DNA from: Pseudomonas sp. CHM02
GTDB taxonomy: Bacteria > Pseudomonadota > Gammaproteobacteria > Pseudomonadales > Pseudomonadaceae
Assembly (NCBI RefSeq): GCF_000612585.1
Contig: NZ_JFCA01000002.1
Coordinates: 124,001 to 188,000 of the forward strand
Direction: 5' to 3'
Length of the DNA: 64,000 bases
The translations under genes and the position numbers were made by a program. The notes under the pieces are model-generated. The model did not search any database, had not been told where the DNA came from, and was given only the letters and a program-made list of their open reading frames with translations. Shown here piece after piece: positions 23,990-58,233 of this stretch (position 1 is its first letter; each line of letters starts with the position of its first letter).

Positions 23990-26900
23990 GCTGGCCTACT
24001 TTGCCGCGCCCTTGCAGGGTGGTTTCGTACATGCCTTCGGCGTAGGCCGGTGGCGTATTGAAGGTCCCGGCGTTGGTGGCGCGGACGCGGTACACGAACG
24101 TGCCGACATCACGCAGCGCGGTGCCGTACAACACCACGCGATCATCACGTACGTCCACGTAGTCCGGCTGCCAGTTGCTCAGCTCGGTTTCGCCGATGGG
24201 CGCCTGCCAGCTTTGTTCTTCCTGGCTGTCTTCTTCGACGTATTCAGACTCTTCGCCCTCACTGTCCTCGCTGCTGGCGGCTTCCGGCTCCGGCGGCAAG
24301 TTATACACAGGCTCGACGCCTCCGGGCAGCAGGTCGACCACGGCCACTTGTTGCACCTGATCGCGGTCGGTAGCCCGCAGGCGCAGGCGTACCAGGAACT
24401 CATCACCGACGGCGACCTTGCTCACCGGCTCGCCCTTGAGGTCGAGGTATTCGTGGATGATTTCCAGGCCATTGTTGATCGGCTTGAGCTTGGCGCCCTT
24501 GTCGAAACCGGCTTCGCTGAGCATGTAGAACGCCGCTGGGCCGTCGGATTTCTCCATCACCAGCTTTTGTGTGGTGCCTGGTACGGCCGCGCGCGGTGGC
24601 TGACCAGCCATTTCCAGCAATTGCTGCTGCTTGTCGCCCAGCCAGGCGGTGGCCTTGAGGGTCATGTCGCTTTGCGCACGTTGGCCGTAGTTGTCCAGTG
24701 CACGCAGCAGCAGGGCCGCCGACAGCGAGTTGTAACGCTGCTCGTTGAGGCGCTTGCCGAGTTTATCCAGCAGCGCTGTAGGCACATCGTCCATCAGCTC
24801 CGGGAAATGTCGCGCCAACAGGTGCAGGTGTTCGGCATCGTGCACCAGCGGGTCGTAATACAGGCCGTCGCTGTCCCACTTATCCACAAGCGCACGCCAG
24901 GGGATTTTGCGGAACAGCGTATCGGCCTGGCGATCCTGTTTGAGCAATTTGTAACTGGCCGCCAGGTAAGCGGCGCCCAGGTCGTTCTGCCAGGTGTCCT
25001 TGAAGTAGCTTTCGTAGCGCTCGCGGATATCGCTCAACGCACCACTCACCAGAATCCCCTGACGGCTCAGCAGGTAGCTGGCGTAGGCGCGGTTGCGCAA
25101 TTCCGACAGGCCTTCGCTGGGACCATTGGCCAGGTCTGTCAGGTACGCATTCGAGCGCACCAGCAGGTCTTCCGGCACCGGCAACCCACGCTCCCTGGCT
25201 TCGATCAGGAAGTCGGTGGCGTAGAGGCTGGCGTACGGCGCCACGTCCGGGTTGGCTGCCCACAAACCGAAGCCGCCGGCCTGGTTCTGGCGTTGGCGCA
25301 GCATGCGTACCGCGCTGCCGAAGGCTTGTTCGGCCTCAGGTGCATTGCCGCCCCAGATCAACGCCGGCATGGCCTTGGACACCAGTTGCTCGGTGCAGGC
25401 GTAGCCGTAGTCATCCAGGTAGTGCTTGAGGCCATTGGCCCACACCAGCGGCGAGGCCGCTACGCCCAGTTGCACGTCGCGCAGTTGGCTGAACAACTCG
25501 CGGGTGGGTTTGAGCTCCTTGCTGGCGCTGTCGAAGCGGCCCAGGCTCAGGGCTACGCGATGTTCGCTCAGTGGGCGGATCGAGGTGGTTTCCGCCACCT
25601 GGATGCGTTTGCCATCCGGCAGCACTGCGACAAAACGCAGGTCCGCCGAGCCGAGGGTGTCGCCGACCTTGATCTTGAACTCGGCCGTGCCCTCTTTGCG
25701 CGGTTGCAGGGACAAGGTGCTGCCCTTGTCGCTCTGCACAACCAGGCCATCGCTGGTCTGCACTTCAAACTTCACGTCCGCCGCTGCATCCAGGTTACTG
25801 AACACCCCGGCGCTGACGTTGAACACATCCCCCGGCGCCACAAAGGCCGGCACGTTCGGCGTGATCACGATCGGCCCGCGCACGTCAGTACTGGCTTCGC
25901 TGACACCGACACTGTCGCTGTCCACCGCTACTGCGAACAGGTGCAGCTTGCCGTTGAAGCTGTCCGGCACTTGGTAATGCAGTACGGTTTCCCCGGCCGG
26001 CAGATCGACCAAGCCAGACCACCAGGCCACCGGCGGCTGGTGTTTACGCTTGAACGGGTTGAGGTGGTTGGCCAGGGCGCCTTCCGTATCGCCACCGGGC
26101 GCCGCCCCACTGAGCAGGCGGCTGAATTCCGGCAGGATCAGGTCAAGGATCTGACTGGTGCCGACCTCCAATGCACGCTTCTGGAAGAAGAAGCCCAGCG
26201 GGTCCGGCGTCTGGTAGCGCGCCACTTGCAGGATGCCTTCGTCGACCGCGTAGACCACCGCGCGGCCCGGGCGATCAGCGTTGACCTTGATATCCAGCGT
26301 CTGCCCCGGCTCGATCTTCGCCGGGCCTTCAACCTTCAAGGCCATGCGCCGCGCATCCAGGTTGATGCTGAACGGCACCACGCCGTAGGACAGCGGGCTC
26401 ATGTACACCTCGGCCGAGCCCATGTCGCGTACAAACTGCACGTTGACGTAGGCATTGCCCTCAAGCCCTGCCGGCACGCGGATGTGTTGCACACTGTTGG
26501 TGCTGTCGGCCTTGAACCACTGCTGGGTGTAGACCTTGTCGCGTTCGATGGTGATCAAGCCGGCGCCGGTATACGGCGCTCGAATGCTGATGGCGATCTC
26601 ATCGCCGGTGGCGTAGCTGCGTTTATCCAGGCGCAGTTGCAGCTCGGCGTTGCGTTCCAGGGAGCGCGATGTGTTGCCACGCCCGGCCACGCTGTAGTCG
26701 ATCTGGTTGAGCAGGTTGCCGTTGGCGTCCTTCAACTGCAGGGTGAAATCGCCCGGTGTGGACGTGTTCAGGGTCTGTTTGGCGCCTTCTTTCGTCATCA
26801 CCAGCGGTGAGGCGGGTTGGCTGATGTTCTTGATGCGCGACTCGTACTTGTAGGTGCCGTTGGACTGTTTCACCAACACCGACACATACCGGTGCTCGAC

Positions 26901-29783
26901 CACTTCGCTGGTCAGGCCGTCCACCGCCACGGGCGTAAGGTCCGGCGCGACGGCCAGCCATTGCACCTGGCGCGGGGCATCCTTGGCGACGTACGACAGC
27001 GAATCCTGACTTTTCACACCCACCAGGTAGGGCGCGGACGACACCAGCAAGGCACTTTGTGCCGCCACATTGCGGCCGCCTTCGGCTTCGAACACCTGGG
27101 TCATCACCTGCAGGCGATAGGTGCTGTTGGCGAAGCGTTGCAGGTTGAGGTCGAGCACGGCCTGGCCGTTGTCGTCGACGGTGGTTTCGGCCAGGTCTTC
27201 GGTCGTGGCGTCTTCCAGTGAGTCGTTGAGGCGGAAACGGTAATCCGGGTAACGATCAAACGCCGCGAGCGTCGGGCTCAGGGACATCTTCGCGGTGACA
27301 CGACGGCCGGTTGCCGGGGCGCCGAACAGGTGCATGGCGGTGACCTTGGCCACCACCTGGTCCGGTGGAATCCAGCCCTGCACCGGGGTGTCGTGCAGGC
27401 TAAGGCTGACCTTCATGCGGTCCGGCTCGAAGTCGCGGACCTTGAAGTTCACGCTGCCCAGGTCGGTGCGGGTCTGCTTCTGGCCAATCAACTGCAACGT
27501 TGCGGTGTACTCCCCGGCGGGGGCGACTTCACTGCTGGGGAAGTCAAAGGTTTCAAAGCCGCTGGCGGACAGCTTCAACGGCTGGCGAATCACTTCCAGG
27601 CCACGCGGGTCGGTGATTTGCAGCTCCACCGGCAGGCCTTGCAGCGCGCCTTTCCAGTTGCCGCTGCGCACAATCATGCCCAGGTGCGCGGTTTCGCCGG
27701 GCCGGTACAGGCCACGGTCGGTAAACAGGTAGGCGCTGAGGCGATCAATCGCGCCGTCTTCTTCCAGACCGCCGACGTCGAAACGCGACAAATCCAACTG
27801 CTGGGACTGGCGGGCGATCGGCAGGAACGACTGGTCATTGCCGCGCGTGACCACATACATCAGCGGCGTTTTCTCACGACGCAATTCATCCAGCTTGGCG
27901 AAATGCGCATGGCCTTCGGCATCCGTGTGGCCGCTGCTCACCGGCAAACCGTTGCGGCCGATGATGTCGACTTGCGCGTCGGAGACTGGCGAACCATTGC
28001 CGATGGACTGCACGTACACGTCATGGCTGCCATCGCTGGAGCGCTTGGCGATGATGCCCAGGTCCGTCACCACGATGAAACGCAGGTCGCTGGTACTGCT
28101 GCGGTCGTACTCGAACGTGCGCGGGGCCGGGTCGTCCTGCGGGCTGAGCTTGAGCACGAAAATGCCGCGCCGGCCGCCATTGGCGGTGAGGTAGTGGCTG
28201 AGGTCGACGTTGTCGTAGACGGTTTTCGCCGGGTCATTGGATGACAGGGGAATATCCAGCGACTGACGCTCGACCATGCGATCAAAATACTCGTTGCCGA
28301 AATTCGGCCGGGCAAAGCTGCCGCTGCTCTGGTCCACCAGGTGTTGTAGCTGGTTGGGCAACAGGCGGGCGATTTCCACATGGGCGCCAGGCACACCACG
28401 GGCCATGAAGCCCAAGCGCTTTTCACCGTTGAGGCTGAGCAAGGCGCCGTCAGAGAGGAACTGCAAGGTGCGCGGGTACGCCGGCATGCTGATCAGCGAC
28501 GCTGTAGGGTTTTTCGCCAGATAACCGCCGATGGCTTCCAGGTTGGCGGGCACGCGCACATACACGGCGCGACCGGCCGGGGCCTTGAATTTGAAGGCGT
28601 GCAGGGTATTCAGCGGTTCGACGCTGGGCACGTGGGTCAGGTTGACCTTGGTGCTGCGGGCGAGCAGGGCGTCATCGATGTCGTTGCTGCTGTAGGGGCG
28701 CGTGTCGTCCTGGGCTTTTTCCGGCAACAGCCAGGCCTGGACCTTGCCGGCGATGGTTTCGTCGGCCACGGCGCTGGAGCTGCTGAACATCAGCACCGGC
28801 TCCGGCTCGCCACGTTCGTTGTCGACAAAGCTCACTTCGGCCCCGGTGAAGGTCAGGCGATAGCGACCGGGCACGGTGACCTCCGCCACCAGCGGCGCGG
28901 TGCTGGCGTTGCCGCCGTCGCGGGCCTTGATGCCTTCGTCGAGCTTGGCGCTGACCGGCGTGCTTTCCAGCGGGGTCGCCAGGGCGGCGGAACGTACGTA
29001 GGCGTTGAGTTTCTTCTCGTCGAAGGTGATTTCCGGGCGGTTGGGCAACTGGGCGTCGCGGTAGGCCAAGCCTTTGCCCAGGGTCACCGTGACGCGCTTG
29101 CGCAGGCTGTCTTCATCCACCGGGTGGGAAAAACGGAAGGTCGCCACCAGCTGTTTCAGCGTCGGGTTGGACGGGTCCTGATACAGCTCGTTTTGCGCCA
29201 GGGTGGCGCGGAACGCTTGGGTGGAAAACTGCGTGCTGTATTGGTCCAGCAACACGCCGTCAGCCAGCAGGTTTTTCTTGGCCAGGTCGAGGGTGTAATG
29301 GGCGTCGATGGGCCAGTCTTTTTCCGGTACGAACAACAGGCTGCGGTCATCCGCCCAACGCCAGGTGCCCGCGACCGCAGGTTTGAGGGTGATGCCCTCG
29401 GTAACCGGTTTGCCGATGGCCCCCAGCGGGGCCACGGATTCGCCAAAGCGCACCTGCAAGTTATCCACCACCGGCGTTTGCTGGGTGTAGTCGGTGAGGT
29501 TCGGTTTGTGCAGCGAATAGCTCGCGGTATAGGGCTTTGGCAGGTTGGAATACCAGTGCCAGCCGTAGAAACCGGCAGCCGCCAGCAGGACCAGCCCTAA
29601 CACGCCGGCACCGGTTTGGCGTGGGTAAGCGCGGGCTTTGCTGCCCAGGTTCGCCAGCCCACGGCCGATGGCACGCAGCCAGGCCGGCGGATGCCATTGG
29701 CCAAACACGGCCCCCACCACAGTCAATAACGCACCGACAATACGGCGGCTGATCGCTTTGAACGAATCGAACATGGTGAGCAT
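23970..29783 (-). CDS. Bacterial alpha-2-macroglobulin (large, thioester-containing)
   Basis: Predicted periplasmic protease trap of 1937 residues, longer than the roughly 1650-residue E. coli YfhM. The N-terminus has a cytoplasmic tail of about 50 residues and one membrane helix (AGVLGLVLLAAAGFYGWHW) in place of a lipobox. MG domains (MG1/MG2: GLYRPGETAHLGMIVR) and the A2M domain follow, then a thioester domain with YACTEQLVS near residue 1460, a CxEQ thioester motif. An acidic Glu/Ser-rich stretch lies near residues 1830-1850. Start codons at 29783 and 29774 are both possible; the second is better spaced from AGGG. Confidence 0.93.
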   Translation of the reverse strand: MLTMFDSFKAISRRIVGALLTVVGAVFGQWHPPAWLRAIGRGLANLGSKARAYPRQTGAGVLGLVLLAAAGFYGWHWYSNLPKPYTASYSLHKPNLTDYTQQTPVVDNLQVRFGESVAPLGAIGKPVTEGITLKPAVAGTWRWADDRSLLFVPEKDWPIDAHYTLDLAKKNLLADGVLLDQYSTQFSTQAFRATLAQNELYQDPSNPTLKQLVATFRFSHPVDEDSLRKRVTVTLGKGLAYRDAQLPNRPEITFDEKKLNAYVRSAALATPLESTPVSAKLDEGIKARDGGNASTAPLVAEVTVPGRYRLTFTGAEVSFVDNERGEPEPVLMFSSSSAVADETIAGKVQAWLLPEKAQDDTRPYSSNDIDDALLARSTKVNLTHVPSVEPLNTLHAFKFKAPAGRAVYVRVPANLEAIGGYLAKNPTASLISMPAYPRTLQFLSDGALLSLNGEKRLGFMARGVPGAHVEIARLLPNQLQHLVDQSSGSFARPNFGNEYFDRMVERQSLDIPLSSNDPAKTVYDNVDLSHYLTANGGRRGIFVLKLSPQDDPAPRTFEYDRSSTSDLRFIVVTDLGIIAKRSSDGSHDVYVQSIGNGSPVSDAQVDIIGRNGLPVSSGHTDAEGHAHFAKLDELRREKTPLMYVVTRGNDQSFLPIARQSQQLDLSRFDVGGLEEDGAIDRLSAYLFTDRGLYRPGETAHLGMIVRSGNWKGALQGLPVELQITDPRGLEVIRQPLKLSASGFETFDFPSSEVAPAGEYTATLQLIGQKQTRTDLGSVNFKVRDFEPDRMKVSLSLHDTPVQGWIPPDQVVAKVTAMHLFGAPATGRRVTAKMSLSPTLAAFDRYPDYRFRLNDSLEDATTEDLAETTVDDNGQAVLDLNLQRFANSTYRLQVMTQVFEAEGGRNVAAQSALLVSSAPYLVGVKSQDSLSYVAKDAPRQVQWLAVAPDLTPVAVDGLTSEVVEHRYVSVLVKQSNGTYKYESRIKNISQPASPLVMTKEGAKQTLNTSTPGDFTLQLKDANGNLLNQIDYSVAGRGNTSRSLERNAELQLRLDKRSYATGDEIAISIRAPYTGAGLITIERDKVYTQQWFKADSTNSVQHIRVPAGLEGNAYVNVQFVRDMGSAEVYMSPLSYGVVPFSINLDARRMALKVEGPAKIEPGQTLDIKVNADRPGRAVVYAVDEGILQVARYQTPDPLGFFFQKRALEVGTSQILDLILPEFSRLLSGAAPGGDTEGALANHLNPFKRKHQPPVAWWSGLVDLPAGETVLHYQVPDSFNGKLHLFAVAVDSDSVGVSEASTDVRGPIVITPNVPAFVAPGDVFNVSAGVFSNLDAAADVKFEVQTSDGLVVQSDKGSTLSLQPRKEGTAEFKIKVGDTLGSADLRFVAVLPDGKRIQVAETTSIRPLSEHRVALSLGRFDSASKELKPTRELFSQLRDVQLGVAASPLVWANGLKHYLDDYGYACTEQLVSKAMPALIWGGNAPEAEQAFGSAVRMLRQRQNQAGGFGLWAANPDVAPYASLYATDFLIEARERGLPVPEDLLVRSNAYLTDLANGPSEGLSELRNRAYASYLLSRQGILVSGALSDIRERYESYFKDTWQNDLGAAYLAASYKLLKQDRQADTLFRKIPWRALVDKWDSDGLYYDPLVHDAEHLHLLARHFPELMDDVPTALLDKLGKRLNEQRYNSLSAALLLRALDNYGQRAQSDMTLKATAWLGDKQQQLLEMAGQPPRAAVPGTTQKLVMEKSDGPAAFYMLSEAGFDKGAKLKPINNGLEIIHEYLDLKGEPVSKVAVGDEFLVRLRLRATDRDQVQQVAVVDLLPGGVEPVYNLPPEPEAASSEDSEGEESEYVEEDSQEEQSWQAPIGETELSNWQPDYVDVRDDRVVLYGTALRDVGTFVYRVRATNAGTFNTPPAYAEGMYETTLQGRGKVGQLEITKP

Positions 29784-37015: not shown

Positions 37016-37030
37016 TGTTATATCGTAACT
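37016..37030. promoter_or_regulatory. Zur-box-like palindrome upstream of the SPFH/P-type ATPase operon
   Basis: TGTTATATCGTAACT agrees with the Zur core seen twice later in this window (TGTTATA-TATAACA) at 12 of 15 positions. It lies 27 bases before the start of the first SPFH gene. It is weaker than the sites at 54.2 and 55.9 kb, and Zur control of this operon is only a suggestion. Confidence 0.4.
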
Positions 37031-37057: not shown

Positions 37058-38962
37058 ATGCAAGTGGATCTGGAAGCTGACGGCGCGTGGGTAGAAAGCC
37101 TTCCGCGTTTTCAACAGGGGCTGTTCCATGCCCGTCGATTGCGCCAGGCCGGTATCTGCCTGACGGTACTGGCCGTGGCCGGTTGGGTGTTGGCGCTGTT
37201 TGTCGCGCTGTTTGTGCCGCTGTCGATCTGGCCGGTGGTGCTGATCAACTGCGCGTCGGCGTTATTGCTGCTGGTGGCCGGTTTGCAATCGGCGTGGTGG
37301 GTGGCGGATTGGCGCGCCCAGGCGTTGGAAGAGCCCGCGGTTGAAGTGCCGGTTGAAGACACGAGCCGGTACGCGCGCCTGGTGGAGCGTGTTGTCGAGC
37401 AGATCGGTGCACCGGTGTTGTGGCTCGGCGGCTGGTCGTTGCTGGCGCTGGTCAGCATTATCGAGTTCTGGAACCTGGCGTTGCCCGCCGCGCCGGTCGG
37501 TCAATCGGCAAGCATCGGTGCGGCGCTGGCCCTGGCCCTGGCGTTTGGGTTGCTGGTGTTCGAACGCCGCCTCGCCCAGGAAACCACCGCACAATGGCCA
37601 GAAGCTTCGCAACTGGCACCGTTGAGCCGGGTGGCGATCATCTGCCTGGTGGTCTGTGCGGTTTGCCTGCTGTTTGCCGGGGCCGAATCCGTGTGGCCGT
37701 TGCGCCTGGCGGTACTGATCGGCCTGCTGCCTGGGCTGGTGGCGCTGGAGTTTCTACTAAGGGCCGTGCTGTCGCTGTTCAGCCCCCGTCAACGGCGCCT
37801 CGAACCTCGCTTGATGGCGCAGAGCTTCATCGCCGGACTGCTGCGTTGGCCGCCTCAACCCTTGCTTGCCTTGCAGCATGAATTGCACAACCGCTTTGGC
37901 ATCGACTTGCGCCAGATCTGGGCATTTACCTACATGCGTAGGGCGTTCCTGCCGGTGTTGCTGGTGGTACTGGCGGTAGGCTGGGCGCTCACCGGCGTGC
38001 ACGAAGTGCCCCTGCAAGGCCGTGGGATTTATGAGCGCTTCGGTAAACCCGTCGAGGTGTTCGGCCCCGGTTTGCATGCCGGGTTACCGTGGCCGCTGGG
38101 GCGTGTCATCAGCGTGGAAAACGGCGTGGTGCATGAGCTGGCCACCAGCGTCACTGACTCCGCAGCACCAGAACTGGCCCCCGCCGAAGGCCCGCCGCCG
38201 CTGATCGCCAATCGGTTGTGGGACGCCAGCCATGTGAATGACAAATCCCAGGTGATCGCCAGCAGCAGCGGCGACAAGCAGAGCTTCCAGATCGTCAATA
38301 TGGATGTGCGCTTCGTTTACCGCATCGGCCTCACCGATCAGGCGGCGTTGGCAGCCACCTATAACAGCGCGGATGTGCCGACCCTGATCCGCAGCACTGC
38401 GAGCCGCATCCTGGTGCACGACTTTGCTTCGCGTACCCTCGATGAATTGCTCGGCGAACAACGCACCCGCCTGGCCGACGAGATCGGCCGCGCCGTGCAG
38501 GCAGATCTGCAAAGGCTCGACAGCGGCGTGGACATCCTCGCCACTGTGGTCGAAGCGATCCACCCTCCGGCCGGCGCAGCCAATGCCTATCACGGCGTGC
38601 AAGCTGCGCAGATCGGCGCCCAGGCCCTGATCTCCCGCGAGCGCGGTGCGGCCAGCGAACAAACCAACCAGGCGTTGCTGCAAGCCAGCACTGCGCGTGA
38701 TCAGGCCCAGGCCACCGCACGGGAAGTGAATGCCGGTGCCCAAGCCGCCGGCCTGCGTTTCGCCGCCGAACAAAAGGCCTATGCCACGGCCGGCCAGGCC
38801 TTCGTGCTGGAGCAATACCTTGGCCAACTGAGCCAGGGCCTGGCCCACGCCAAGCTGCTTATCCTGGATCACCGCCTGGGCGCCGATGGCGCGCCGACGA
38901 TCGATCTGCGTTCTTTTACCTTGCCGGCCGATCCCTCGCAGCCGCGTAAAGCCGTTCAATAA
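37058..38962 (+). CDS. SPFH-domain protein with multi-helix N-terminus (HflK-like)
   Basis: 634-residue membrane protein. The first 280 residues hold about six hydrophobic helices in pairs, unlike true HflK, which has one. At about residues 297-315 a further helix leads into an SPFH/band-7 domain (HEVPLQGRGIYERFGKPVEVFGPGLHAGLPWPLG; VDVRFVYRIGL; HDFASRTLDELL) and an alanine/glutamine-rich coiled coil (ERGAASEQTNQALLQASTARDQ). The first gene of a four-gene operon. The housekeeping hflK/hflC of the FtsH complex are normally next to hfq-hflX, so this is a paralogue. Start at ATG 37058, the first good codon after the promoter region. Confidence 0.82.
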   Translation: MQVDLEADGAWVESLPRFQQGLFHARRLRQAGICLTVLAVAGWVLALFVALFVPLSIWPVVLINCASALLLLVAGLQSAWWVADWRAQALEEPAVEVPVEDTSRYARLVERVVEQIGAPVLWLGGWSLLALVSIIEFWNLALPAAPVGQSASIGAALALALAFGLLVFERRLAQETTAQWPEASQLAPLSRVAIICLVVCAVCLLFAGAESVWPLRLAVLIGLLPGLVALEFLLRAVLSLFSPRQRRLEPRLMAQSFIAGLLRWPPQPLLALQHELHNRFGIDLRQIWAFTYMRRAFLPVLLVVLAVGWALTGVHEVPLQGRGIYERFGKPVEVFGPGLHAGLPWPLGRVISVENGVVHELATSVTDSAAPELAPAEGPPPLIANRLWDASHVNDKSQVIASSSGDKQSFQIVNMDVRFVYRIGLTDQAALAATYNSADVPTLIRSTASRILVHDFASRTLDELLGEQRTRLADEIGRAVQADLQRLDSGVDILATVVEAIHPPAGAANAYHGVQAAQIGAQALISRERGAASEQTNQALLQASTARDQAQATAREVNAGAQAAGLRFAAEQKAYATAGQAFVLEQYLGQLSQGLAHAKLLILDHRLGADGAPTIDLRSFTLPADPSQPRKAVQ

Positions 38963-38974
38963 GGAGTCTGTCTG

Positions 38975-39964
38975 TTGAGCGCTCATTCTCACGATCATCA
39001 TCACGGCCATCACCACCACCACCACCATCATCATGGTGACGAACAAGCGGCCGGCCCGTTCCCCTGGCGGCGCATGGCCTGGGCGCTGTTGCTGGTGCTG
39101 TTTGCGGTCGCTGCCGCCAGCCTGGTGCAAGTGCGTTCCGGCGAGGCCACGGTGATTACCCGTTTCGGCAACCCCTCGCGGGTGCTGCTGGAGCCGGGCC
39201 TGGGCTGGCGCTGGCCGGCGCCGTTCGAAGCGGCGATCCCGGTGGATCTGCGCCTGCGCACCACCTCCAGCGGCTTGCAGGATGTGGGCACCCGCGATGG
39301 CCTGCGCATCATCGTGCAGGCGTACGTTGCGTGGCAGGTGCAGGGCGATGCGGACAATGTGCAACGCTTTATGCGCGCGGTGCAGAACCAGCCGGATGAA
39401 GCGGCGCGGCAGATCCGCACCTTCGTGGGTTCGGCGCTGGAAACCACCGCGGCCAGCTTCGACCTGTCGAGCCTGATCAACACCGATGCCAGCCAAGTGC
39501 GCATCGCCGATTTCGAAACGCAGTTACGCCAGCAGATCGATCAACAATTGCTCACCACTTATGGCGTGCGCGTGGCCCAAGTCGGTATCGAACGGCTGAC
39601 CTTGCCGTCGGTCACCCTGACGGCCACTGTGGACCGCATGCGTGCCGAGCGGGAAACCATCGCCACCGAACGCACCGCTGTGGGCAAGCGCGAGGCGGCG
39701 CAGATCCGTTCCGCCGCCGAGCGCGATGCGCGCATCGTGCAGGCCGATGCGACGGTGAAAGCCGCCGATATCGAAGCGCAATCGCGGGTCGAGGCCGCGC
39801 AGATCTATGGCCGCGCCTACGCCGGCAATCCGCAGCTGTATAACCTGCTGCGCTCCCTGGATACCTTGGGCACCGTGGTCACGCCGGGCACCAAGATCAT
39901 TCTGCGCACCGACGCTGCGCCGTTCCGCGCCTTGGTGGACGGGCCTAAGGATGTCCAGCCATGA
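38975..39964 (+). CDS. SPFH-domain protein with histidine-rich N-terminus (HflC-like)
   Basis: 329-residue membrane protein. Residues 4-20 contain 14 histidines (HSHDHHHG followed by nine His), then one helix (MAWALLLVLFAVAAASLVQV) and an SPFH domain (SGEATVITRFGNPSRVLLEPGLGWRWPAPF; GVRVAQVGIERLTLP) with a C-terminal coiled coil rich in Ala/Glu/Arg. The His cluster should bind metal ions near the membrane; the neighbouring gene is a metal ATPase. The start is a TTG 8 bases after the strong ribosome binding site AAGGAG (38961-38966). It overlaps the next gene by 4 bases. Confidence 0.85.
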   Translation: MSAHSHDHHHGHHHHHHHHHGDEQAAGPFPWRRMAWALLLVLFAVAAASLVQVRSGEATVITRFGNPSRVLLEPGLGWRWPAPFEAAIPVDLRLRTTSSGLQDVGTRDGLRIIVQAYVAWQVQGDADNVQRFMRAVQNQPDEAARQIRTFVGSALETTAASFDLSSLINTDASQVRIADFETQLRQQIDQQLLTTYGVRVAQVGIERLTLPSVTLTATVDRMRAERETIATERTAVGKREAAQIRSAAERDARIVQADATVKAADIEAQSRVEAAQIYGRAYAGNPQLYNLLRSLDTLGTVVTPGTKIILRTDAAPFRALVDGPKDVQP

Positions 39965-40995
39965 CCGAGCGTGACAGCCCCGACAGCCCGTGGATCCAGG
40001 CCGGGCGCCTGACCTTCCTGGCGTTGTACGCGGTGACGGTGCTGGCGGCGTTGGCCTGGGCATTTTCCAATGTGCGCCAGATCGACCCGCAGAACCGTGC
40101 GGTGGTTTTGCACTTCGGCGCTCTCGATCGTATCCAGAATGCCGGCCTGTTGCTGGCCTGGCCGCAGCCGTTCGAGCAGGTGGTGCTGTTGCCGGCGGCC
40201 GACCGGGTGATCGAGCGGCGGGTGGAGAACCTGCTGCGTTCCGACGCGGCGATCCAGGCCGACCGCGTGGCCAGTTTCGCCACGCCGTTGAGTGATGCAC
40301 TGGCCGGCTCCGGTTACCTGCTGACCGGTGATGCCGGCGTGGTGCAACTGGATGTGCGGGTGTTCTACAAAGTCACCGAACCCTATGCCTTTGTGCTGCA
40401 GGGCGAGCATGTGCTGCCGGCGCTGGATCGCCTGGTCACTCGTAGCGCCGTGGCCCTCACGGCGGCGCGGGACCTGGACACGATTCTGGTCGCACGACCT
40501 GAATTGATCGGGTCAGATAACGGCGCTGCCGAACGTCGCGAGCGGCTGCGCGGCGACTTGGTACAAGGCATCAACAAACGCCTGGCGGAGCTGACATCCA
40601 CAGGGTTGGGATTGGGTATCCAGGTCACCCGCGTGGATGTGCAATCGAGCCTGCCAAGCCCGGCGGTAAACGCGTTCAACGCGGTGCTGACCGCCAGTCA
40701 GCAGGCCGATAAAGCCGTGGCCAACGCCCGCACCGACGCGGAAAAACTCACCCAGACCGCGAACCAGCAGGCCGATCGCCTGGTGCAAGTCGCCCACGCC
40801 CAGGCCAGCGAACGCCTGGCCAACGCCCAGGCGCAAACCGCCACGGTCGCCAGCCTGGCCCAGGTGAACGACCCGGGCCTGTTGGTGCGTCTGTACCGCG
40901 AGCGCCTGCCGAAGATTCTCGGCCAGGCGGGTTCCGTGACCACGGTCGATCCGAAAGACGACTCCCGCTTGATCATCCAGGGAGCCGAACAATGA
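39961..40995 (+). CDS. SPFH-domain protein (HflK-like), third of the operon
   Basis: 344-residue protein with one N-terminal helix (FLALYAVTVLAALAWAFSNV) and an SPFH domain (IDPQNRAVVLHFGALDRIQNAGLLLAWPQPFEQV; VQLDVRVFYKVTEP) followed by a coiled coil (KAVANARTDAEKLTQTANQQADRLV). It overlaps the His-rich gene upstream and the ATPase gene downstream by 4 bases each (ATGA), so the last three genes are translationally coupled and the products probably form one complex. Confidence 0.85.
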   Translation: MTERDSPDSPWIQAGRLTFLALYAVTVLAALAWAFSNVRQIDPQNRAVVLHFGALDRIQNAGLLLAWPQPFEQVVLLPAADRVIERRVENLLRSDAAIQADRVASFATPLSDALAGSGYLLTGDAGVVQLDVRVFYKVTEPYAFVLQGEHVLPALDRLVTRSAVALTAARDLDTILVARPELIGSDNGAAERRERLRGDLVQGINKRLAELTSTGLGLGIQVTRVDVQSSLPSPAVNAFNAVLTASQQADKAVANARTDAEKLTQTANQQADRLVQVAHAQASERLANAQAQTATVASLAQVNDPGLLVRLYRERLPKILGQAGSVTTVDPKDDSRLIIQGAEQ

Positions 40996-42878
40996 GCGCA
41001 CCCATGCTGACTTCCGCCGAGCAGCGCAGTGCTGCCCGGCAATTGACCCTCGCCATGCTCGCCTTGGGCTTGCTGGTGTTGGGCCTGGTATGGCGCTGGC
41101 TGGCGCCAGGCCAGAGCGGTGTGAGCCAATTGCTGTTGGGCGTCGCTTCGCTGTTGGTGGCGGTGCCGGTGATGCGTTCGGCCTGGTACAGCCTGCGGTT
41201 TCCCAGCCTGCATGGCATCACCGACCAACTGATCGCCCTGGCCATGCTCGGTGCGTGGGCCACGGGTGATCTGCTGACCGCCGCGCTGCTGCCGATCATC
41301 ATGATCTTTGGCCATGTGCTGGAAGAGCGCAGCGTGATCGGCTCCCAGGAGGCGATCCGTGCCCTGGGCAAGCTGACCCGCAGCCACGCGCGGTTGGTGC
41401 AGGCTGACGGCAGCATCCATGAAGTGGACAACGGCACGCTGAACACCGGCGACATCGTCGAGGTGCGTGCGGGTGATCGGGTGCCGGCGGATGGCGTGGT
41501 GCTGTCGGGCCGGGCGAGCCTCGACACGGCGCCGATTACCGGTGAGTCGGTACCGTTGGAAGCCAGTGTGGGCGTGCAGGTGTTTGGTGGGGCGATCAAC
41601 CTCGACGGCTTGCTGCGCCTGCAAGTGACCCGCACCGGTAACGAGTCCACCTTGGGCAAAGTCATTGCGCTGATGCAGAACGCCGAGCGTTCCAAGCCGC
41701 CAATCACGCGGTTGCTGGAGCGTTATGCCGGCAGCTATATGGTGCTGGTGTTGCTGCTGGCGGCGGTCACCTGGTTTGTGACCAATGATGCCCAGGCGAT
41801 GCTCGCCGTGCTGGTGGCCGCATGTCCGTGTGCGTTGGTGCTGTCGGCGCCGGCCACCGCCATTGCCGGGATCGCCGTGGCGGCGCGCCATGGCATCCTG
41901 ATTCGCAGCTCGGCGTTCCTCGAAGAGCTGGCGGACCTGACCTCGCTGGTGGTCGACAAGACGGGCACCCTGACCTTTGGCACCCTGCGGTTGCAATCCA
42001 TCGAGACCACCGCGCCGGATCGGCAGCTGTTGCTGAACCTGGCGGCCAGCTTGGGCTCGGCCAGCAGCCACCCGGTCAGCCGAGCGTTGGCGGGGTTGGC
42101 GACGCAGGAACAGATGCTGGCGTTGACGGATATTCGCGAGCGCCAGGGCCTGGGGGTGGTGGCGCGGACCGATCAAGGCGAAGCGGCATTGGGCCGGCCG
42201 GAGTTATTCGAACAGCTGGGCATCCTCACCACCGCGGTTCCGAATCACGACGGGCCCATCGCCGGGTTGGCGCTGGACGGGCGGTTTCTTGCCTGGCTGT
42301 TGCTGGCCGATAGCGTCAAGCCGGAAGCCCGCCAGGCGCTGCAAGAGTTGCGTGACCTTGGCCTCGGTCGCCAACTGCTGCTCACCGGCGACCGCCAGAG
42401 CGTGGCTGACAGCCTGGCGCTGGACGTGGGTATCAGCGATGTCGAAGCCCAGGCCTTGCCGGAAGACAAGCTCAACCGCGTGCTGGGCGAAATCGGCAGT
42501 GGCTTTCGACCGATGGTGGTAGGGGATGGCATCAACGATTCGCTGGCGCTCAAGGCCGGTGTGGTGGGCGTGGCCATGGGCGCGGGCGGGGCGGATATCG
42601 CCTTGGCGTCGGCGGATGTGGTGCTGATCGGCAGCGACCTGCGGCGCCTGGGCACCTGTGTGCGCTTGAGCCGTCAGTGTCGGCAGACATTGCAGGTCAA
42701 TGTGATCATCGGCCTGGGCTGGACCTTGGCCATTGTCGTATTTGCCGCCTTTGGCTGGCTGGGTGTCGCCGGCGCGATGATCGCGGCGGTGCTGCACAAC
42801 CTCAGCACCTTGCTGGTGCTGGGGAATGCCGGGCGGTTGCTGCGCTTCCAGGAGCCCCTGTTGAAGCTTGAGGAATAA
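40992..42878 (+). CDS. P1B-type heavy-metal-transporting ATPase
   Basis: 628-residue ATPase without an N-terminal CxxC metal-binding domain. Motifs in order: TGESVP (actuator, about 190), ACPCALVLSAP (CPC in the metal-binding helix, about 278), DKTGTLTFG (phosphorylation, about 322), SSHPVSRAL (the HP motif) and GDGINDSLALK (about 511). The last helices end HNLSTLLVLGNAGRLL, which is unlike the classical copper (P1B-1) or zinc (P1B-2) endings and recalls the HEGST-type motif with Asn in place of Glu-Gly. The metal and direction are therefore uncertain. The upstream His-rich SPFH protein may replace the missing metal-binding domain. Confidence 0.9.
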   Translation: MSAPMLTSAEQRSAARQLTLAMLALGLLVLGLVWRWLAPGQSGVSQLLLGVASLLVAVPVMRSAWYSLRFPSLHGITDQLIALAMLGAWATGDLLTAALLPIIMIFGHVLEERSVIGSQEAIRALGKLTRSHARLVQADGSIHEVDNGTLNTGDIVEVRAGDRVPADGVVLSGRASLDTAPITGESVPLEASVGVQVFGGAINLDGLLRLQVTRTGNESTLGKVIALMQNAERSKPPITRLLERYAGSYMVLVLLLAAVTWFVTNDAQAMLAVLVAACPCALVLSAPATAIAGIAVAARHGILIRSSAFLEELADLTSLVVDKTGTLTFGTLRLQSIETTAPDRQLLLNLAASLGSASSHPVSRALAGLATQEQMLALTDIRERQGLGVVARTDQGEAALGRPELFEQLGILTTAVPNHDGPIAGLALDGRFLAWLLLADSVKPEARQALQELRDLGLGRQLLLTGDRQSVADSLALDVGISDVEAQALPEDKLNRVLGEIGSGFRPMVVGDGINDSLALKAGVVGVAMGAGGADIALASADVVLIGSDLRRLGTCVRLSRQCRQTLQVNVIIGLGWTLAIVVFAAFGWLGVAGAMIAAVLHNLSTLLVLGNAGRLLRFQEPLLKLEE

Positions 42879-42994
42879 TTTTCAGAAATATTTGCACAGG
42901 GCTGTAACGCGGATGAGGGGCCTCACTCTAGTGGTGTGTCGAGACTGAACAATCCGTTCAGACCGACACCCCTACGATCATGAGGAATACAACA

Positions 42995-43249
42995 ATGAAC
43001 ATCAAATCCGCTGCTGCTGGTGCCGCCCTCGCAATGGCTGCCGCTACTATGTTTGCGGGTGTTGTCACTCAGGCCCAGGCCGCTGACACCGCCGTCCACT
43101 GCTACGGCATCAACGCGTGCAAAGGCCAGAACGACTGCAAAACCAAGGACCACGCGTGCAAAGGCCAGGGCTCCTGCAAAGGCCAGGGCTTTAAAGTCCA
43201 GGCCAGTGCCGATGCCTGCACCAAGGCGGGCGGCAAAGTCGGCGAGTAA
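42995..43249 (+). CDS. bufA: Bufferin (BufA, DUF2282) metallophore precursor peptide
   Basis: 84-residue exported peptide with an Ala-rich signal sequence (cleavage after AQAA, about residue 30) and a mature part with six cysteines at 36, 41, 48, 55, 61 and 75 ([26 protein letters not shown]). DUF2282 proteins of this kind are known as bufferins: ribosomal peptides whose cysteines are modified by a DUF692/MNIO enzyme and which bind copper in the periplasm. The MNIO enzyme gene follows. ATG 42995 gives a normal signal peptide; a start five codons upstream is less likely. Confidence 0.9.
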
Positions 43250-43314
43250 CCGGCAAACAAGTGCACCCGCAGCGGTTGCCCCCACCGCTGCGGTCACTTT
43301 CCCAGGAGTGTCTT

Positions 43315-44160
43315 ATGCCTACCTCCCTTCCGAGCCTCGGTTACGGCCTGGGTCTACGCAGTGAGTATTACCAGCAGATCCTTGAACAATCGCCGGCCGT
43401 GGATTGGTTCGAAGTGATCTCCGAAAATTATCTGGTCCAGGGCGGTAAAGCCTTGTACTACCTGGACGCGATAGCCGAGCGTTATCCCCTGGTGATGCAC
43501 GGCGTGTCCCTGTCCATCGGCGGGCCCCATGCCCTCGATATCGATTACCTGAAACAAATCAAACAGCTCGCCGAGCGTATCCAGCCAGCGTGGGTTTCCG
43601 ATCATCTGTGCTGGAGCCGCGGCAGCGCCCACCAGTTGCACGACCTGCTGCCGCTGCCTTACACCGAAGAAAGCCTCTACCACGTGGCTGCCCGCGTGCG
43701 CCAAGTGCAGGACGTATTGCAACGCCCGCTGGTGTTGGAAAACGTCTCCAGCTATGTGCGCTCGAAGGCCGATGAATTCACCGAGTGGGAATTCCTCAAC
43801 GCCCTGGCGCACCTGTCGGGCTGCCAGTTGTTGCTCGACGTCAACAATGTGTATGTCAGCTCGCGCAATCATGGTTTTGACGCCTGGACGTTTATCCGCA
43901 ACCTGCCACCGGAGAGCATCCGCCAACTGCATCTGGCGGGCCATATGGACTATGGCGACTATGTGGTCGACACCCATGACCATCCCGTGTGTGACCCGGT
44001 GTGGGCGCTCTATCAACAGACACTGGAGCACCTGGGACCCGTGTCGACGCTACTGGAGCGGGACGACCATTTCCCACCTTTCGAAGCGCTGCTCACCGAA
44101 CTGAGCAAGGCGCGCGAACTGGGTGCCATGGCGTTGGCAAGGAGATCGTTATGCGCCTGA
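43315..44160 (+). CDS. bufB: MNIO-family (DUF692) bufferin-modifying enzyme BufB
   Basis: 281-residue multinuclear iron-dependent oxidative enzyme with a TIM-barrel pattern. Metal-binding segments are readable: LVMHGVSLSIGG, VSDHLCWSRG, LVLENVSSYV, LLLDVNNVYVSSRNHG, IRQLHLAGHMDYGDYVVDTHDHPV and LLERDDHFP. It would oxidise cysteines of the BufA precursor encoded just upstream. The ATG at 43315 follows the ribosome binding site CAGGAG (43302-43307). It overlaps the next gene by 10 bases. Confidence 0.93.
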   Translation: MPTSLPSLGYGLGLRSEYYQQILEQSPAVDWFEVISENYLVQGGKALYYLDAIAERYPLVMHGVSLSIGGPHALDIDYLKQIKQLAERIQPAWVSDHLCWSRGSAHQLHDLLPLPYTEESLYHVAARVRQVQDVLQRPLVLENVSSYVRSKADEFTEWEFLNALAHLSGCQLLLDVNNVYVSSRNHGFDAWTFIRNLPPESIRQLHLAGHMDYGDYVVDTHDHPVCDPVWALYQQTLEHLGPVSTLLERDDHFPPFEALLTELSKARELGAMALARRSLCA

Positions 44161-44939
44161 CCGATTGGCAGTTGGCCTTCGAGCAGCATCTGTTATCCGA
44201 AACGCCAGTGGCCAACAGTGGTTTCGCCGCCACCCTGCTGGGTGGGCCGACACTGGACGTGGACACGGGCCTGGCGATTTACCACAACGCTTACCTCTCG
44301 CGGTTGCAGGAGGTATTGCGGCATGACTTCAGTGCCATCTTCTATTGGCTGGGTGATGATGAATTTGCGTCGCTGACCGAGGCCTATGTGCGCCGCTATC
44401 CATCGGCGCACTACAGCCTGCGTTGGCTGGGCGAGCGTTTCCCGGCGTTCATCCTTGAGCACTTGGTGGCGGAGCAAAGCGCGCCGCTGGCGGAGCTGGC
44501 GCGGTTGGAATGGACGTTTACCCTGGCGTTTGATGCGCCGCAGGGCGAACCGCTGACCCTGGACGACATGGCACACCTGGCGCCTGAAGACTGGCCGGGT
44601 TTGCAGGTGACGCTGGCGCCCTCCGTGCAGCAGATACTCTGCCGCTTCAATACGGTGGCAATCTGGCGGGCCAGCAAGGATGAGTCGGACTTCCCCCACA
44701 GCCAGGCGCTGGACCCGGCGCAAATCTGCCTGGTGTGGCGGCACCAGAATGTGTGCCATTACCGCAGCCTGGAGCCTGCAGAAATGTGCGCCCTGGCAGG
44801 CATGGTGACTACCGGCTGGTGTTTTTCAGAACTGTGCGCCGAACTTGCAGTCACTTATGCAGAGGGTGCACCACTGCAAGCCGTCACGTGGCTGAAACAG
44901 TGGATCCAGGACGGTTTGCTCGAGCGCCGAGCCCCATAG
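44151..44939 (+). CDS. bufC: DUF2063 protein, bufferin biosynthesis partner BufC
   Basis: 262-residue soluble protein with the DUF2063 N-terminal DNA-binding-like domain (LTDWQLAFEQHLLS; GLAIYHNAYLSRLQEVLRHDFSAIFYWLGDDEF; YVRRYPSAHYSLRWLGERFPAF). It acts as the substrate-recognition partner of DUF692 enzymes. The ATG at 44151 overlaps bufB and gives the family-typical start. After its stop there is an 87-base gap with a small hairpin (GCTATC-GATAGC, 44946-44962) and no other visible feature. Confidence 0.9.
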   Translation: MRLTDWQLAFEQHLLSETPVANSGFAATLLGGPTLDVDTGLAIYHNAYLSRLQEVLRHDFSAIFYWLGDDEFASLTEAYVRRYPSAHYSLRWLGERFPAFILEHLVAEQSAPLAELARLEWTFTLAFDAPQGEPLTLDDMAHLAPEDWPGLQVTLAPSVQQILCRFNTVAIWRASKDESDFPHSQALDPAQICLVWRHQNVCHYRSLEPAEMCALAGMVTTGWCFSELCAELAVTYAEGAPLQAVTWLKQWIQDGLLERRAP

Positions 44940-54155: not shown

Positions 54156-54173
54156 ATGTTATATTATAACTAT
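54156..54173. promoter_or_regulatory. Zur box between divergent folE2 and amiC
   Basis: ATGTTATATTATAACTAT carries the palindrome GTTATATTATAAC of the gammaproteobacterial Zur consensus. It lies about 30 bases upstream of folE2 and 80 bases upstream of amiC, so Zur-Zn could repress both directions. Confidence 0.85.
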
Positions 54174-54253
54174 TAAATCGACGATGATTTTTCTGCTCCA
54201 GCCTTTTTTCAGTCATGTCGAGTAGGGACGCTCCTTCATTTGCGGTATTTGTC

Positions 54254-55456
54254 ATGCACAGACGTCAGCTCCTTAACCTGCTTCTGGCCAGTCCTCTTTT
54301 CACACTGCCGTTTGCAGCCCACGCCACACAGATACGCAACGCCCGTCTGTGGCGCTCGGACGACAAGCTGCGGCTGGTGTTCGACCTCAGCGGCCCGGTG
54401 CAATACAAGACCTTCACCTTGAGCGCGCCGGAACGCCTGATCATCGACCTGAGTGGCGCCGGGCTCAGTGGTGATTTCTCTCAACTGGCGCTGACGAACA
54501 GCGGCATCACGGCGATCCGCTCCGGGCATTTCGGCAAAGGCGACACGCGCATCGTGCTCGACCTGGCCGCGCCGATGCAGCTCAACAGCTTTGTATTGCC
54601 GCCCCAGGATGGCCAGGGTCATCGCCTGGTGCTGGACCTGACCAGCGCCACCCAGGCGCCTCGCCAAATCGCCGCCGAGCCTGCGCCGCTCGTGGATAAG
54701 GCGCACCCCAAGCGCGACATCATTGTGGTGGTCGATCCTGGCCACGGCGGCAAGGACCCTGGTGCGGTCGGCTCCAAGGGCCAGCGCGAAAAAGACGTGG
54801 TGCTGTCCATCGCTCAACTGTTGGCCAAACGCTTGAAGCGCGAGAAGGGCTTTGACGTAAAATTGGTGCGCAACGACGACTTCTTCGTGCCGCTGCGCAA
54901 GCGCGTGGAGATTGCCCACAAGCACAACGCCGATATGTTTATCTCGGTGCATGCGGATGCGGCACCACGGATCACTGCGTCGGGTGCTTCGGTGTATGCC
55001 TTGTCCGAAGGCGGCGCGACTTCAGCCACCGCACGCTTCATGGCGCAGCGGGAAAACGGCGCCGATCTGCTCGGCGCCACCAGCCTGCTCAATCTGAAGG
55101 ACAAGGACCCGATGCTGGCAGGGGTCATTCTGGATATGTCGATGAACGCCACCATCGCCTCCAGCCTGCAACTGGGCAACTCGATCCTGGGCAGCCTGGA
55201 AGGCATCACCAGCCTGCACCAGAAGCGCGTGGAGCAAGCGGGATTCGCGGTGCTCAAGTCACCGGACGTGCCGTCGATCCTGGTGGAAACCGGGTTTATC
55301 TCCAATGCGCGTGACAGTGCGCGCCTGGTTACCGCGCGGCATCAACAGGCGGTTGCCGATGGTTTGTTCGAAGGCCTGAAAAAATACTTCCAGAAGAACC
55401 CGCCGATGAACAGCTATATGGCGTGGGTGCAGGAACAGAAGAACAGTCAGGTCTAA
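54254..55456 (+). CDS. amiC: N-acetylmuramoyl-L-alanine amidase (AmiC type, zinc-regulated)
   Basis: 400-residue periplasmic amidase that cuts the stem peptide from peptidoglycan during cell separation. The N-terminus MHRRQLLNLLLASPLF has a twin-arginine pair, as in AmiA/AmiC exported by Tat. An AMIN domain (about 28-130) is followed by an amidase_3 domain with zinc ligands in VVDPGHGGKDPG, QREKDVVLS and ISVHADA, and the catalytic Glu in ILVETGFISN. ATG 54215 would extend the N-terminus by 13 residues and is possible. Its placement by the Zur box suggests it compensates for zinc-starved amidases. Confidence 0.93.
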   Translation: MHRRQLLNLLLASPLFTLPFAAHATQIRNARLWRSDDKLRLVFDLSGPVQYKTFTLSAPERLIIDLSGAGLSGDFSQLALTNSGITAIRSGHFGKGDTRIVLDLAAPMQLNSFVLPPQDGQGHRLVLDLTSATQAPRQIAAEPAPLVDKAHPKRDIIVVVDPGHGGKDPGAVGSKGQREKDVVLSIAQLLAKRLKREKGFDVKLVRNDDFFVPLRKRVEIAHKHNADMFISVHADAAPRITASGASVYALSEGGATSATARFMAQRENGADLLGATSLLNLKDKDPMLAGVILDMSMNATIASSLQLGNSILGSLEGITSLHQKRVEQAGFAVLKSPDVPSILVETGFISNARDSARLVTARHQQAVADGLFEGLKKYFQKNPPMNSYMAWVQEQKNSQV

Positions 55457-55821
55457 CAACCCGTTATACGGCTGCAGGTGAATTTGGCGCTGGCGCCACC
55501 CGAACTGGAAAACCGGTTGAGGGTGGTCCAGCCCACACGCCGCGTGTAGCCGACCCACGCCTCACCGTCCGACGCCAACCCGGTAAAGAACGTCAGTTGC
55601 CCGTAGCGGCTGTTGGTCTGTGCCCAATAGCGTTTGCCGATCACCTCGTACCCGCGCAAATACGTGGTGCTGCCGACCGTCGCCACACTGTAGGCATTGC
55701 CCAGGGGATCGACGCAGGCCAGCAGATTGGCGCTGCGCGTGCAGTTGGCCAGCAGGTTGGGTACCTGTGCGCAGGCCGTTCCGGCCGTTGCCAATAACAG
55801 GGCGCACACCAGGTATTTCAT
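55453..55821 (-). CDS. Small secreted protein with four cysteines, unknown function
   Basis: 122-residue protein with a signal peptide (MKYLVCALLLATAGTACA) and a mature part that has four cysteines, at the start (NCTRSANLLAC) and the end (FTCSRITGC). I do not recognise the family. It starts 80 bases from the Zur box at 55.9 kb, divergent from dksA2, and its 3' end overlaps the amiC end by 4 bases. It may therefore be a zinc-starvation-induced periplasmic protein. Confidence 0.8.
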   Translation of the reverse strand: MKYLVCALLLATAGTACAQVPNLLANCTRSANLLACVDPLGNAYSVATVGSTTYLRGYEVIGKRYWAQTNSRYGQLTFFTGLASDGEAWVGYTRRVGWTTLNRFSSSGGASAKFTCSRITGC

Positions 55822-55898
55822 CGGATTTCTCGTGGCGGGGAAGTGTTCAAGCATTGCGCCCTTCGTCGAGGTGAGCAAGAGGGGATTGGCTTATTTGT

Positions 55899-55917
55899 AT
55901 TGTTATACTATAACATT
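55899..55917. promoter_or_regulatory. Zur box between dksA2 and the small secreted protein gene
   Basis: ATTGTTATACTATAACATT contains the perfect 15-base palindrome TGTTATACTATAACA apart from its central base. It lies 31 bases upstream of dksA2 and about 80 bases upstream of the divergent secreted protein gene. It is the best Zur site in the window. Confidence 0.9.
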
Positions 55918-55948
55918 AAAACACAGCCTGACCCGTGAACCGCTCCCC

Positions 55949-56353
55949 ATGACCGAACAAGACCTGCTGGCCCAGCCGCCTGCCGACTACATGAATGAAG
56001 CCCAGCAAGGGTTCTTCCGTGAGTTGCTGCTGACCCAGCGCAATGAGCTGCAAGCACGTATCGACGCCGAGTTCCTGGCGTTGCGTGAACAGGAAACCAA
56101 CAGCGACCCGGCCGATGTGGGCAGCGCCGAAGAACAGCGCCAATGGCAACTGCGCCTGCTCGAGCGGGAAAAGAAGCTGTTGGACAAGATCGACGACGCC
56201 CTGGAATTGCTGGCCCGTGGTGAATACGGCTGGTGCCGCGAAACCGGTGAGCCCATCGGCCTGCACCGCCTGCTGCTACGTCCCACCGCCACCCTGTGTA
56301 TCGAAGCCAAAGAACGTGAAGAGCTGCGCGAACGCCATAAACGGGCGATTTGA
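55949..56353 (+). CDS. dksA2: DksA2, zinc-independent DksA paralogue
   Basis: 134-residue RNA polymerase-binding factor that works with ppGpp. A coiled coil with the DPADVGSAEEQRQWQLRLLEREK segment leads to the C-terminal globular domain. The four zinc cysteines of DksA are reduced to two: C96-RE-T99 and C117-IE-A120, as described for P. aeruginosa DksA2. It would replace DksA when zinc is missing. The ATG at 55949 gives the usual length; longer frames extend through the Zur box and are wrong. Confidence 0.95.
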   Translation: MTEQDLLAQPPADYMNEAQQGFFRELLLTQRNELQARIDAEFLALREQETNSDPADVGSAEEQRQWQLRLLEREKKLLDKIDDALELLARGEYGWCRETGEPIGLHRLLLRPTATLCIEAKEREELRERHKRAI

Positions 56354-56380
56354 CCGGCCAACCCTGATGAGGAATACCTG

Positions 56381-57589: not shown

Positions 57590-58233
57590 TGCTGGCCCCG
57601 GTTATTCCCCTGCGCCCCGTGATTCGCCAGACTTATGGTGAAACTCCGCTGGCGCTGTCCGACATCCTTGAAGATGGCGTCAACCTGGCGGTGTGGCAGC
57701 GCCAGTTGCCCCTGCATATCGCCGAGTTCGGCGCCTTGCTGGTGGCGCTCAACGAGCCATTGGCCGAAGCCATGGTGATTGAGCTCAACGACGAAGACGC
57801 CGTGCCCAACTTGCAAGGGCTGGCGTCCAGTTGCCGCGATCTTGAAGGCTACGAAGGCTTTATCGCCGATGTGTCTTGGCTGGTCAGTGCGTTCGCCTGT
57901 TTGCTGGGCGCCAAGCGCATCGGCGTGCGCCTGCGCGTGTTGGATAAAGCCATGTGTCCGCGTTTTCACGTCGACCATGTGCCGGTGCGGCTGATCACCA
58001 CCTATGCCGGGATCGGCAGCCAGTGGTTGCGTGAAGGTGTGATGGACCGTCGCAAGCTGAGCCAGCCGGATGCCGAACCCACCGAGCGTGTCGAACAGAT
58101 CCACTGCGGCGAAGTCGCCCTGCTCAAGGGCACCAAATGGCATGGCAATGAAGGTCACGGCCTGATTCACCGTTCGCCGGCACTCAAGGCTGACGAGCGT
58201 CGCTTGATCCTGACACTGGATTGGCTCGCATAA
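57589..58233 (+). CDS. DUF1826 protein in the zinc-starvation operon
   Basis: 214-residue soluble protein of unknown function. It has no signal peptide. Residues 124-135 read PRFHVDHVPVRL and residues 177-195 NEGHGLIHRSP..ERR, giving H127-x-D129 ... H184 and R195. This spacing resembles the iron site and 2-oxoglutarate arginine of Fe(II)/2OG oxygenases; that is my inference. It is translationally coupled to zigA, so it is probably part of the zinc-starvation response. Confidence 0.88.
   Translation: MLAPVIPLRPVIRQTYGETPLALSDILEDGVNLAVWQRQLPLHIAEFGALLVALNEPLAEAMVIELNDEDAVPNLQGLASSCRDLEGYEGFIADVSWLVSAFACLLGAKRIGVRLRVLDKAMCPRFHVDHVPVRLITTYAGIGSQWLREGVMDRRKLSQPDAEPTERVEQIHCGEVALLKGTKWHGNEGHGLIHRSPALKADERRLILTLDWLA

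Follow-up and report, generated by a model that had tools for sequence, protein, structure and literature searches.

Three HflK/HflC-like SPFH genes and a P1B ATPase gene travel among proteobacteria as one unit with a probable role in zinc acquisition

In a 64,000-nucleotide stretch of the genome of Pseudomonas sp. CHM02 (the window, to which coordinates refer unless a locus is named), positions 37058-42878 of the plus strand hold three genes for Band_7/SPFH membrane proteins, here called SPFH1, SPFH2 and SPFH3, followed in one tight run by a gene for a P1B-type (heavy metal) ATPase. Our principal finding is that these four genes are the unit and that they move as one, because they co-occur across genomes, keep a fixed order while their flanks change, and encode proteins whose distances run in parallel. 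We consider it highly likely that the four genes serve zinc acquisition. On balance, we lean towards the fuller reading that they specify a Zur-linked platform for zinc and copper import, in which an HflK/HflC-like scaffold surrounds an ATPase of the HmtA type.

The distribution of the genes carries the principal finding. Among 119 genomes of the genus, SPFH1 (E < 1e-100) and the ATPase (E <= 1e-120) are found in the identical 71, where they always share contig and strand and lie about 4 kb apart, and at those thresholds neither is present in the other 48. The SPFH1 search matched 74 of these genomes in all; three weak matches (G006, G070 and G079, with E-values of 2e-11 to 1e-9; G-numbers denote genomes and L-numbers examined loci) were set aside, and each of these module-less genomes has a second match that scores over the hflK cut-off given below. 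Across 398 genomes of the phylum, SPFH1, SPFH2 and the ATPase each match the identical 11; the weakest of the 11 ATPase matches has an E-value of 4e-261, and no other falls below 1e-110. Another genus of the family has the ATPase in 13 of 25 genomes, with the four genes present in 8/8 of the loci examined from these, and the alphaproteobacterial order of G276 gave one genome of 199.

The four genes stand in the same order on one strand in every one of the 118 loci examined (117 distinct). The preliminary description of this DNA had singled out the four-gene order, and its recurrence across genomes is strongly positive by this count and by both co-occurrence sets. The 118 loci came from a contig scan with SPFH2 (80), from searches that SPFH1 and the ATPase both matched (20), from SPFH1 (6), from the ATPase (6) and from a plasmid search with SPFH2 (6 of 10 records examined); 92 were retrieved by an SPFH query alone and 6 by the ATPase alone. 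The contig scan covers the best 80 of 479 relatives, those 80 being all from Pseudomonas, and the breadth of the unit rests on the other searches. In the set of 112 loci used for the comparisons that follow, L045 and L114 are the same locus, and L035 and L088 are cut by contig ends.

The four-gene loci span alpha-, beta- and gammaproteobacteria, and the module lies on plasmids of Rhizobium, Paraburkholderia, Burkholderia and Klebsiella, two of which are predicted to be conjugative. Genes that flank the module in the window recur in 3 to 14 of 20 diverse loci of the genus and in none of the 12 distant loci. Across 27 loci, the four proteins have pairwise distances that correlate with r values of 0.88-0.98, a comparison made among the four proteins with no outside control gene. 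A chance neighbourhood is rejected by the co-occurrence in the genus (71/119) and the phylum (11/398) together with the changing neighbours. The predicted-conjugative carriers are those of Burkholderia ubonensis and Klebsiella aerogenes (L152, L153), with transposase genes near the module.

Table 1. Features of the four-gene unit, in window coordinates
Feature	Coordinates	Strand	Remarks
Zur-like palindrome TGTTATATCGTAACT	37016..37030	+	42 bases 5' of the SPFH1 ATG
SPFH1, HflK-like Band_7	37058..38962	+	ATG start, 634 aa; about six extra N-terminal helices, conserved cytoplasmic linker, anchor helix; PA2439/PaFlo5 counterpart
SPFH2, HflC-like Band_7	38975..39964	+	TTG start, 329 aa; His-rich N-terminal tail; PA2438/PaFlo6 counterpart
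SPFH3, HflK-like Band_7	39961..40995	+	344 aa, one N-terminal helix; PA2437/PaFlo7 counterpart
P1B ATPase, probable HmtA group	40992..42878	+	628 aa; CPC, HNxST in last helix; folded metal-binding domain absent; PA2435 counterpart

SPFH1 and SPFH2 are separated by 12 bases, and the last three genes overlap by four bases at each junction (39961-39964 and 40992-40995), a spacing of -4 that recurs in 98 of 112 related loci for SPFH2/SPFH3 and in 82 of 112 for SPFH3/ATPase. The preliminary description had reported these overlaps, the packing of three SPFH genes with a P-type metal ATPase, about six extra helices in SPFH1, 14 N-terminal histidines in SPFH2 and a simple SPFH3; open reading frame calls, Pfam domains and hydropathy agree on each point, with the 14 histidines falling among the first 20 residues. 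It had also stated that the ATPase lacks a metal-binding domain, which holds for the window copy and fails as a general rule, as some relatives carry a His-rich N-terminal tail (below). The SPFH2 start is TTG in 20 diverse loci of the genus, except for GTG in L031 and L035 (start codons at the compared loci were picked by script), such that a rare start has been long retained.

All three SPFH proteins score over the Pfam cut-off for Band_7 (23.6 bits): SPFH1 with 72.7 bits at residues 321-532 (in a numbering with one extra leading residue), SPFH2 with 110.5 bits (E 1.3e-31) and SPFH3 with 63.0 bits (E 4.7e-17). Hydropathy places about six hydrophobic segments and one anchor helix ahead of the SPFH1 domain. 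When profiles are compared with solved structures, the best known-structure relative is HflK for SPFH1 and SPFH3 and HflC for SPFH2. Scores fall below the NCBIfam equivalog cut-offs for hflK (159.4 bits; SPFH1 56.2, SPFH3 92.6) and for hflC (134.4 bits; SPFH2 93.3). The window genome encodes a separate HflK, HflC and QmcA-like protein, of which HflC is 24% identical to SPFH2 and has no tail, and canonical hflK is present in 119/119 genomes of the genus, with or without the module. Because of these separate proteins, the ubiquity of canonical hflK and the sub-cut-off scores, the trio is best seen as an additional, divergent HflK/C-like set, and the possibility that it replaces HflK/C is rejected by the same 119/119 count. 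The best SPFH2 matches, among the best 80 of 479 relatives, are from Pseudomonas canadensis and other strains of the P. fluorescens group, at 98%, which places the window in that group. An ordinary flotillin-NfeD operon was also considered, and a scan of the four proteins and five flanking ones gave no NfeD. A second HflK/HflC-like pair accompanies canonical hflK in the three module-less genomes set aside above (G006, G070 and G079), with no adjacent ATPase in the two loci read (L184 4662-6595 and L185 4625-6684).

The Escherichia coli HflK/HflC-FtsH system resembles the window trio in two ways: all three SPFH proteins have relatives by sequence there, and a single N-terminal anchor helix precedes the SPFH domain. 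It differs in that the window has three genes rather than two, about six extra helices in SPFH1, a His-rich tail on SPFH2, a trio joined to an ATPase gene rather than placed in an hfq-hflX operon, and a genome that keeps canonical HflK/C elsewhere. In published structures the HflK/C cage encloses FtsH (PMC13086221, among others). This kinship invites an explanation in which the trio consists of zinc-starvation modulators that retune the zinc protease FtsH and are only co-regulated with HmtA. Two papers, one of them PMC11761036, annotate the three proteins as FtsH modulators, and the nearest relatives of each protein, as given above, are in keeping with this. However, near-universal FtsH fails to explain a trio confined to genomes that hold the ATPase, plasmid copies included, and canonical hflK occurs in all genomes of the genus regardless of the module. 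We therefore regard FtsH modulation as an unlikely account of the trio.

The fourth protein has the Pfam domains E1-E2_ATPase and Hydrolase, scores over the cut-offs of NCBIfam ATPase-IB families (523 bits for TIGR01525) and contains DKTGT, with CPC at residues 278-280; its domains, its DKTGT and its metal motif in helix 4 are those of a P1B-type ATPase. No Pfam metal-binding domain is found in the window protein, and no His or Cys precedes its first helix. Among the related ATPases, ACPCAL (which holds the CPC) is present in 112/112 and HNxST in 107/112, where L151 and L152 deviate and three others are cut or shortened. The closest solved structure is PDB 7qbz (E 2.9e-76), which we take to be the P1B-4 ATPase sCoaT and which, in its matched part, likewise has no folded metal-binding domain. 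The P1B-4 subgroup is marked by SPC in helix 4 and HEGxT in helix 6, both seen in 7qbz (SPC and HEGST), whereas the window ATPase has CPC and HNLST in their places and so does not match the P1B-4 motifs. We would place the window protein in the HmtA group of P1B ATPases.

The His-rich tail of SPFH2 persists despite fast sequence change. Of 112 loci, 111 have five or more His ahead of the SPFH2 helix and 17 have three or more ahead of the conserved start of the ATPase; no locus (0/112) lacks both tails. The sole locus without the SPFH2 tail is L153, on the Klebsiella plasmid, where the ATPase has one; this is a single case and only a hint. The SPFH2 tail is followed by a helix that Arg precedes, as in HflC, and then by an HflC-type domain. 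The bulk of HflC is periplasmic. Because P1B ATPase N-termini are cytoplasmic and the Arg pattern of the SPFH2 helix is that of HflC, the His tails of both proteins probably face the cytoplasm, which for SPFH2 would be the exit side if the ATPase imports.

A cytoplasmic tail would also suit a pump working in the other direction. The ATPase might export, with His tails that collect scarce zinc or copper and a pump that supplies metalloenzymes of the periplasm within an SPFH chamber on that side, as other metal-loading P1B pumps do; ordinary P1B pumps are loaded from the cytoplasm, and the closest solved structure is that of a P1B pump of the export type. Yet reviews describe HmtA as a zinc and copper importer whose overexpression leads to metal accumulation and hypersensitivity, which favours import, as does induction on zinc depletion (PMC4542158, PMC11761036). 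Export thus seems to us improbable.

Mycobacterial PacL1-CtpC offers the nearest working precedent for a scaffolded P1B ATPase. There, the operon partner of a P1B ATPase is a scaffold in the membrane that carries an Asp/His motif on its cytoplasmic side, and the two form high-molecular-weight complexes (PMC9374683). The differences are that PacL is not an SPFH protein, that the direction is efflux and that PacL foci are independent of flotillin (PMC9374683); moreover, PacL has Glu/Ala repeats and a C-terminal metal motif, whereas the window partners are SPFH proteins with an N-terminal one. Since PacL1 does not need its metal-binding motif to keep CtpC abundant (PMC9374683), the trio could be a general microdomain or chaperone set that stabilises HmtA with no enclosure and no metal handling. 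We give this little credence, given that the His tail of SPFH2 is kept in 111/112 loci despite its fast sequence change.

The palindrome upstream of SPFH1, TGTTATATCGTAACT, is a weak site with three mismatches to TGTTATANTATAACA, which we take to be the Zur consensus and which is the yardstick for all box scores given here. When the window and the 112 loci are taken together, the best upstream match has at most four mismatches in 104 of 113 sequences, compared with about 8.5% of mononucleotide shuffles; because the loci are related, this count amounts to a footprint rather than to 104 independent events. The position and sequence of this weak box are kept in Pseudomonas, and the alphaproteobacterial and most betaproteobacterial loci have no upstream site at this consensus. 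Two stronger sites in the window, at 54157 (one mismatch) and 55901 (perfect), belong to a second cluster of zinc-starvation type (54157-58233) that encodes Amidase_3, DksA, a CobW/COG0523 GTPase and DUF1826. The consensus gains support from the position of these two sites, since a published list of the P. aeruginosa Zur regulon includes the counterparts of this cluster. Zur, with zinc, shifts the PA2439 promoter in an electrophoretic mobility shift assay (PMC8531726).

PA2439 is the first gene of the P. aeruginosa cluster PA2439-PA2438-PA2437-PA2436-hmtA(PA2435)-PA2434, which likewise has three HflK/HflC-type genes and then a P-type ATPase. Our stand-in for this cluster is L178, which has the window's gene order, with identities of 57% (SPFH1), 82% (SPFH2), 67% (SPFH3) and 81% (ATPase), and a gcvT-like gene upstream. 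The DksA2 of its genome (G569) is 95% identical to PDB 4ijj, whose presumed source organism is our basis for taking L178 as P. aeruginosa group, and the layout of L178, with its gcvT-like gene and small open reading frame, resembles that of PA2442 to PA2434. L178 differs from the window in having that small frame between SPFH3 and the ATPase and a His-rich ATPase N-terminus. Based on L178, the gene order and the papers, we take the window operon to be the counterpart of the hmtA cluster. The small frame (about 8030-8460 in L178, 9141-9593 in L144) has a signal-peptide-like start and a PA2436-like position; both loci are from another genus of the same family. A Pfam scan of the L144 frame gave zero matches, and the window operon has no such frame.

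In a znuA mutant, PA2439 rises 9.0-fold, PA2438 10.6-fold, PA2437 14.4-fold and HmtA 5.6-fold, and the same paper assigns PA2439 to HflK and both PA2438 and PA2437 to HflC and notes a weak Zur site (PMC4542158). In a 2025 preprint, zinc depletion raises the levels of HmtA and of the PA2437-2439 proteins, and for PA2438 the rise is significant by one method (PMC11761036). The locus and its zinc regulation are therefore already described in P. aeruginosa, and the suggestion in the preliminary description that the system was undescribed does not stand, whereas its proposal of metal transport as the likely function is supported. Within the available open-licence PMC literature, we found no paper that reports an obligate trio-ATPase module, the strictness of the four-gene unit or a test of interaction between trio and ATPase. 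The available text of a 2009 SPFH survey (PMC2636767) does not mention ATPases, and that of a 2026 study in which the trio appears as PaFlo5-7 (PMC13086221) has the word zinc once, for FtsH, and the word ATPase nowhere.

About 100 bases 3' of the ATPase gene begins a set (42980-44939) for a BufA2 bufferin precursor, a BufB maturase and a DUF2063 partner, associated with a copper-related ribosomally synthesised and post-translationally modified peptide. These genes adjoin the module only in close relatives (50 of the best 80 of 479). A functional tie to them is unsupported, as BufB adjoins the module at 3 of the 20 diverse loci and at none of the 12 distant ones. Farther upstream, two long open reading frames of 766 and 1937 aa on the minus strand (21689-29783) resemble what we take to be a PbpC/alpha-2-macroglobulin pair.

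For the zinc import platform that we favour, the following sequence of events can be proposed. Zinc shortage would cause Zur to release the operon, and the HmtA-type ATPase would bring zinc or, probably as a second substrate of the module, copper from the periplasm to the cytoplasm. The trio would form a dedicated HflK/HflC-like hetero-oligomer with its SPFH domains in the periplasm, which may gather, enclose or scaffold the ATPase in the inner membrane; that the SPFH proteins and the ATPase physically assemble is a view we hold with modest confidence. The cytoplasmic His tails, on SPFH2 and in certain lineages on the ATPase as well, would take up or buffer the incoming metal at the exit side. 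The preliminary description had proposed that the His tail could feed the pump, but the predicted cytoplasmic location of the tail is the exit side of an importer; it had also suggested a membrane cage around the ATPase, which we likewise put forward as a proposal. We infer how the proteins sit in the membrane, that they form a complex, what the tails do and, for this organism, that the pump imports. More tentatively, and with some doubt, we can imagine a dedicated SPFH vault of three proteins, recruited from proteolysis to house a P-type ATPase and forming a micro-compartment of the membrane, with a periplasmic dome that concentrates metal over HmtA and a cytoplasmic brush of His tails that pulls it through, the whole cassette moving between proteobacterial classes.

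Several observations weigh against an import platform of this kind. The family of the trio fits FtsH regulation. One gene is broken in 7 of 112 loci (SPFH1 in L050 and L089; SPFH2 in L148; SPFH3 in L071, L102, L135 and L137, with a shortened ATPase frame as well in L071), so the unit can decay. AlphaFold2 models of SPFH1 and the ATPase have mean predicted local distance difference test scores of 49 and 42, too poor for use because the alignments are shallow and from Pseudomonas only. In one P. aeruginosa study, hmtA mRNA remained at a low level, and the addition of zinc brought no repression (PMC8531726), and a review states that Zur binds every zinc-uptake promoter but that of hmtA, in conflict with the mobility shift result of the same group. 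HmtA alone is reported to raise metal uptake (a review account of Lewinson 2009), and for this reason the trio may be dispensable for transport. Finally, deletion of PaFlo5-7 had mild effects, in experiments that, in the available parts of the paper, were not under zinc limitation (PMC13086221).

That last condition also offers a reason why the P. aeruginosa PaFlo5-7 mutants might be silent, since the available parts of that study include no zinc limitation. More broadly, two questions stand open: which functions SPFH cages have apart from FtsH, and by what means a P-type ATPase might import instead of export. A portable HflK/C-like trio that is an obligate companion of one class of ATPase would make both of them testable in one small operon.

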